Below, one piece after another: positions 32,186 through 32,476 of a stretch of 38,551 nucleotides of DNA (its first letter is position 1; each line of letters opens with the position of its first letter). The position numbers and the translations under genes are program-made. The DNA is taken from contig JACPXY010000004.1 in NCBI GenBank assembly GCA_016196285.1, positions 1 through 38,551 of the forward strand. Reading direction: 5' to 3'. Below the pieces are notes generated by a model, which worked only from the letters and a program-made list of their open reading frames with translations, searched no databases and was not told the origin of the DNA. Source of the stretch: Candidatus Pacearchaeota archaeon. Lineage in GTDB: Archaea > Nanobdellota > Nanobdellia > Pacearchaeales > GW2011-AR1.

Positions 32186-32257
32186 AGCGCACGCCAGGAA
32201 TCGAACCTGGGTAAAGTCGGGCTGCAGCCGACCGCAGTACCACTGTGCCACGTGCGC
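32186..32257 (-). tRNA. tRNA-Cys (GCA)
   Basis: The cloverleaf has acceptor GCGCACG with CGTGCGC, anticodon arm GTCGG-CTGCAGC-CCGAC (anticodon GCA) and a T arm with TTCGATT. The discriminator is U73, the identity base for CysRS, which agrees with the call. No intron and no encoded CCA. A TTTAAA box at 32283-32288 is centred 28.5 nt before the 5' end. A 20-bp palindrome spans the 5' end of the gene. Confidence 0.95.
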
Positions 32258-32265
32258 ACGTGGCA
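32246..32265. repeat. 20-bp perfect palindrome across the tRNA-Cys 5' end
   Basis: TGCCACGTGC followed by GCACGTGGCA is self-complementary without mismatch. Twelve bases lie in the tRNA (acceptor and start of the D arm) and eight in the upstream DNA. If the transcript starts within 2 nt of the mature 5' end, as the TATA position predicts, the hairpin cannot form in RNA. Confidence 0.75.
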
Positions 32266-32362
32266 GGAAGCATAAGAGCCCTTTTAAAGATAGTGCCTAT
32301 GCAAAAAGAGATTATCATCTTTGAAATATGTCTATAAGATATTCCCTCATAGTAAATACATA

Positions 32363-32437
32363 CGCTCCCGACAGGATTTGAACCTGCGACCTACGGATTA
32401 GAAGTCCGTTGCTCTATCCAGGCTGAGCTACGGGAGC
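32363..32437 (-). tRNA. tRNA-Arg (TCT)
   Basis: The cloverleaf has acceptor GCTCCCG with CGGGAGC, D arm GCTC..GAGC, anticodon arm ACGGA-CTTCTAA-TCCGT (anticodon TCT, Arg AGA/AGG) and T arm GCAGG-TTCAAAT-CCTGT with one G-U pair, discriminator G. No intron, no encoded CCA. A CTTAAA box (minus strand, 32463-32468) is centred 28.5 nt before the 5' end. Confidence 0.95.
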
Positions 32438-32476
32438 TCGGCTCTAGAATCAGAAAATACTATTTAAGCGTTGGCA

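Follow-up and report, generated by a model that had tools for sequence, protein, structure and literature searches.

The window, a 38,551-nt stretch representing contig C15 of a Pacearchaeales (DPANN) genome bin (G000, comprised of 864 kb in 72 contigs, 81% complete), carries four tRNA genes, all of which are genuine according to ARAGORN and to Rfam model RF00005 (58.7-73.6 bits). The host is assigned to the Pacearchaeales by a prolyl-tRNA-synthetase-like protein that shares 65-70% identity with its counterparts in Ca. Pacearchaeota genomes. Each is preceded by a TATA box, and spacing was taken as the distance from the T-A step at the centre of this box to the first mature tRNA base. The tRNA-Met (CAT) gene (23623..23694, plus strand) has the box CTTAAA (23594..23599, plus strand) centred 26.5 nt before its mature end. 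The other three genes and their boxes are located on the minus strand, each with a spacing of 28.5 nt: tRNA-Ala (GGC) (27430..27500) with TTTATA (27526..27531), tRNA-Cys (GCA) (32186..32257) with TTTAAA (32283..32288), and tRNA-Arg (TCT) (32363..32437) with CTTAAA (32463..32468). These distances agree with those given in the initial annotation for the same four genes, the value of about 28 nt for tRNA-Ala being 28.5 nt when measured.

The open reading frames of the window provide a ruler for the transcription start, as had been proposed from their start codons: the commonest distance between TATA box and start codon is indeed 26.5 nt, found for 11 genes. Transcription starts of the tRNA genes were predicted by adding 26.5 nt to the TATA centre, a ruler that derives from mRNAs inferred to be leaderless. 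On this basis tRNA-Met would have a leader of 0 nt, and the three remaining transcripts would each have a leader of 2 nt, with predicted starts at 27502 for tRNA-Ala (A at position -2), 32259 for tRNA-Cys (G at -2) and 32439 for tRNA-Arg (G at -2).

The same arrangement extends over the whole bin, in which 38 tRNA matches were each inspected with their flanks. A TATA box is present 24-32 nt upstream of 33 of them, whereas 500 Markov-shuffled sets averaged 3.1 such tRNAs and never exceeded 10; four of the 38, including the tRNA located behind the 16S rRNA, have no box 20-36 nt upstream. The spacings are 26.5 nt (9 tRNAs), 27.5 nt (4), 28.5 nt (15), 29.5 nt (2), 30.5 nt (2) and 24.5 nt (1), corresponding to predicted leaders of 0 nt (nine tRNAs), 1 nt (four), 2 nt (fifteen, the commonest class) and 3-4 nt (four). 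A leader of 0-4 nt is thus predicted for 32 of the 33 tRNAs with a box at 24-32 nt, and one of 1-4 nt for 23 of the 33, approximately two thirds. On average, TATA boxes sit farther from the tRNAs than from the start codons of mRNAs (post hoc Mann-Whitney test, p about 1e-4), and because of this the usual predicted leader is 2 nt and not zero. The initial annotation had placed the tRNA transcripts 0-2 nt ahead of the mature end. Its near-leaderless character is retained, both genome-wide and in two genomes of the same genus, with the remaining tRNA genes having equally short distances, while the range is widened to 0-4 nt with 2 nt as the usual value. We infer the actual start positions from the sequence, and the tRNA transcripts of this organism would accordingly be described as near-leaderless.

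The predicted starts carry an initiator signature. At the position 26.5 nt from the TATA centre, the bin has a purine in 29 of 33 cases and an A in 20 of 33, with a preceding pyrimidine in 25 of 33. When the bin is pooled with the two same-genus genomes (G001 and G002), the predicted start is an A in 41 of the 57 tRNAs with leaders of at least 1 nt and a pyrimidine-purine (YR) step in 32 of 57 (background 0.22 and 0.19, respectively). The frequent A at -2 (23 of the 38 tRNAs of the bin) could alternatively be a recognition feature of the leader for RNase P and have nothing to do with the transcription start, since in bacteria the leader bases adjoining the cut are known to matter to this enzyme. 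The purine at -2, however, tracks the TATA register: it is found in all 15 tRNAs with a spacing of 28.5 nt (A in 13, G in 2) versus 11 of the 18 others (Fisher p=0.009). Together with the pooled excess of A at exactly the predicted start, this makes a recognition role for A at -2 unlikely.

A second alternative is that the starts are located further upstream or are scattered, at 30 nt or more from the TATA box or by read-through out of adjacent genes, and that the near-leaderless appearance results from misapplying an mRNA ruler to tRNAs. The ruler does depend on mRNAs that are themselves inferred to be leaderless, and the four tRNAs lacking any box 20-36 nt upstream would fit such starts. Against this, in the three genomes pooled the YR peak is positioned exactly at 26.5 nt and is seen at no neighbouring offset, a longer TATA-to-start distance would move the start into the tRNA itself, and only with a ruler that is too short would a start further upstream shorten the leader still more. 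In addition, the mapped starts of Nanoarchaeum equitans show the same distance, with TTTAAA located 26-27 nt upstream (PMC3491384). Upstream or scattered starts are consequently regarded as quite improbable.

The initial annotation had further suggested that this lineage could need little or no RNase P, and here the genome points the other way. An archaeal RNase P RNA (RF00373, 94.1 bits, above the Rfam cut-off) is encoded at G000:C16:33819-34158 (L001:1501-1840) on the minus strand; it is full-length, aligning to positions 1-288 of the archaeal model with its conserved core regions intact and the core motifs GAGGAAGGUCC, ACAGAAACGG, GAUGAAACGG and ACAGAA...GGCCUAC present, and its gene has its own TATA box centred 26.5 nt before the 5' end. 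A profile built from relatives identified Rpp30 (143 aa, E=3.8e-22) at G000:C18:11373-11774, following a gene for an amino-acid kinase (UMP-kinase-like), which is also its neighbour in the relative L192; the family profile matches PDB entries named 'Ribonuclease P protein component 3'. Contig C54 encodes a Pop5-like protein of 86 aa (E=1.3e-4), which at 22.4 bits is just below the Pfam cut-off of 23. For Rpp29 and Rpp21, the two remaining protein subunits of the archaeal enzyme, Pfam HMMs gave no match in the 81% complete bin. These two results are not read as absence of the proteins, because ribosomal protein L29, beside which Rpp29 was sought, is likewise missing from the bin and because Rpp30, which is divergent in this family, was itself missed by the Pfam search of this genome and found only with the relatives' profile. 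Even that profile gave no match in either G001 or G002, two genomes of the same genus. The RNase P RNA was found in 117 of 140 relatives, among them both same-genus genomes. RNase P is thus apparently normal in this genome and coexists with the short-leader pattern; with the RNA and its core, Rpp30 and a Pop5-like protein encoded, and leaders of 1-4 nt predicted for 23 of the 33 TATA-bearing tRNAs, the proposed dispensability is not supported. The candidate of a second RNase-P-free lineage of the N. equitans type was rejected on the strength of the same three genes.

Several tRNA genes fall outside the short-spacing pattern. The tRNA-Ala (UGC) gene is located 284 nt downstream of the 16S rRNA, and two tRNA-His matches of this genome (L014:456-526 and L016:1501-1571) have no TATA box at 26-30 nt; all three transcripts would need 5' cutting. 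The tRNA-His may depend on RNase P because HisRS favours a 5'-monophosphate on G-1 (PMC10100707). A short-spacing TATA box is missing from tRNA-His both in this genome and in G001 (L160), unlike nearly all other tRNAs, and one of these genes has a G at -1 and C73. A tRNA-Tyr (C1), which would be unable to initiate at its own first base, was not recognised in this genome, at its completeness of 81%. Eight of the 38 tRNA genes (L019, L023, L024, L026, L035, L037, L038 and L039) are apparently intron-bearing and were missed by ARAGORN; the intron-bearing matches measure 100-168 nt, the longest being a tRNA-Glu(CTC)-like gene.

Taken together, these observations are very probably explained by ordinary TATA promoters that are packed close to the tRNAs and yield short leaders, with an RNA-based RNase P that is retained and still needed. 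Each tRNA gene would have one ordinary archaeal BRE/TATA promoter set very near the tRNA, from which RNA polymerase would start 0-4 nt, usually 2 nt, before the mature tRNA at a pyrimidine-purine initiator with A. RNase P would then trim the short leaders, its action on leaders of this length being presumed, and would also process the tRNA within the rRNA operon, while approximately one quarter of the tRNAs may be truly leaderless, beginning at +1 and needing no cut. A Nanoarchaeum-like state, in which every tRNA is transcribed without a leader and keeps a 5'-triphosphate when mature, RNase P being vestigial or not required, would be in line with spacings of 26.5-28.5 nt, which are near the 26-27 nt of N. 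equitans. A start at +1, however, fits only the nine of 38 tRNAs with a spacing of 26.5 nt, and 15 of 38 have 28.5 nt, with the initiator purine at -2. Such a state is also at odds with an RNase P RNA having an intact core and its own promoter, with the two protein genes, with the position of tRNA-Ala (UGC) behind the 16S rRNA, and with the retention of the RNA across relatives, and we consider it highly improbable.

Application of the same scan to other genomes displays a gradation. The median spacing is 28.5 nt in this genome, G001 and G002, 29.5 nt in G111 and in G140 (the genome of L070, CP010425.1, archaeon GW2011_AR15), 30.5 nt in G091, and 34.5 nt in G103; the latter four, which represent related families, differ from this genome (Mann-Whitney p 0.002 to 2e-8), whereas G001 and G002 do not. 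Predicted leaders are about 8 nt in G103, 3-4 nt in G111, G091 and G140, and 2 nt in this genus, and the search for RNase P RNA, which covered G103, G111, G091 and this genus, detected it in all of them. These predicted leaders place the genus at the short end of a continuum, within a class in which fairly short leaders are frequent. The genomes G107 and G119 were left out of the spacing statistics, having a GC content of 14% upstream and TATA-like words everywhere.

Two further observations concern RNase P among the relatives. In G107, a single contig of 605,887 bases, neither RF00373 nor PF01876 gave a match and the Rpp30 profile was marginal (E 0.012); G119, a single contig of 668,961 bases from the same genus, has an RNase P RNA match of 63.9 bits. 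The contrast between these two genomes could reflect a recent loss of RNase P. RF00373 also gave no match in G104, a genome with a listed completeness of 100%, which has only 25 tRNA matches and yet a weak Rpp30 match (E 3.8e-6). For Nanopusillus and Nanobdella, the literature searched yielded nothing on RNase P.

What remains, once the tempting claim of another RNase-P-free lineage is corrected, is a pattern of modest genome compaction. Within the class of Nanoarchaeum the leaders form a graded series, which ends, according to the literature, in Nanoarchaeum itself without leader or RNase P, and the route by which RNase P was lost thereby becomes testable by comparison. A more specific scenario, which we put forward tentatively and consider doubtful, is that the genus has a fixed leader of approximately 2 nt starting with A, that RNase P does no more than cut off this dinucleotide and is bypassed by about one tRNA in four, and that this represents an intermediate preceding the loss in Nanoarchaeum. 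Short leaders may in this way have pre-adapted the class for the loss of RNase P in Nanoarchaeum.

Compared with known systems, the organization described here resembles N. equitans, a member of the same archaeal class, in having one promoter per tRNA with a TATA-type box (TTTAAA in N. equitans) at a near-fixed distance. In N. equitans the tRNAs start at +1, or at -1 for His, Tyr and iMet, and neither RNase P RNA nor its proteins are present (PMC3491384, PMC10100707); here, in contrast, a 2-nt leader is the one most often predicted, and the genome has genes for the RNase P RNA, for Rpp30 and for a Pop5-like protein. Methanopyrus kandleri has short tRNA leaders of 12-13 nt (Asp, Tyr) with a purine start, and RNase P is present (PMC3695527). 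The likeness lies in short leaders beginning at a purine alongside RNase P, but the leaders predicted here are shorter, at 0-4 nt. Pyrobaculum, as Lai et al. are said to have described in 2010, reportedly combines short or absent tRNA leaders with a retained type T RNase P RNA that lacks most of the specificity domain. The combination of short leaders with an RNase P RNA would be common to both organisms, but unlike the type T RNA so described, the RNA encoded here matches the full archaeal model from position 1 to 288.
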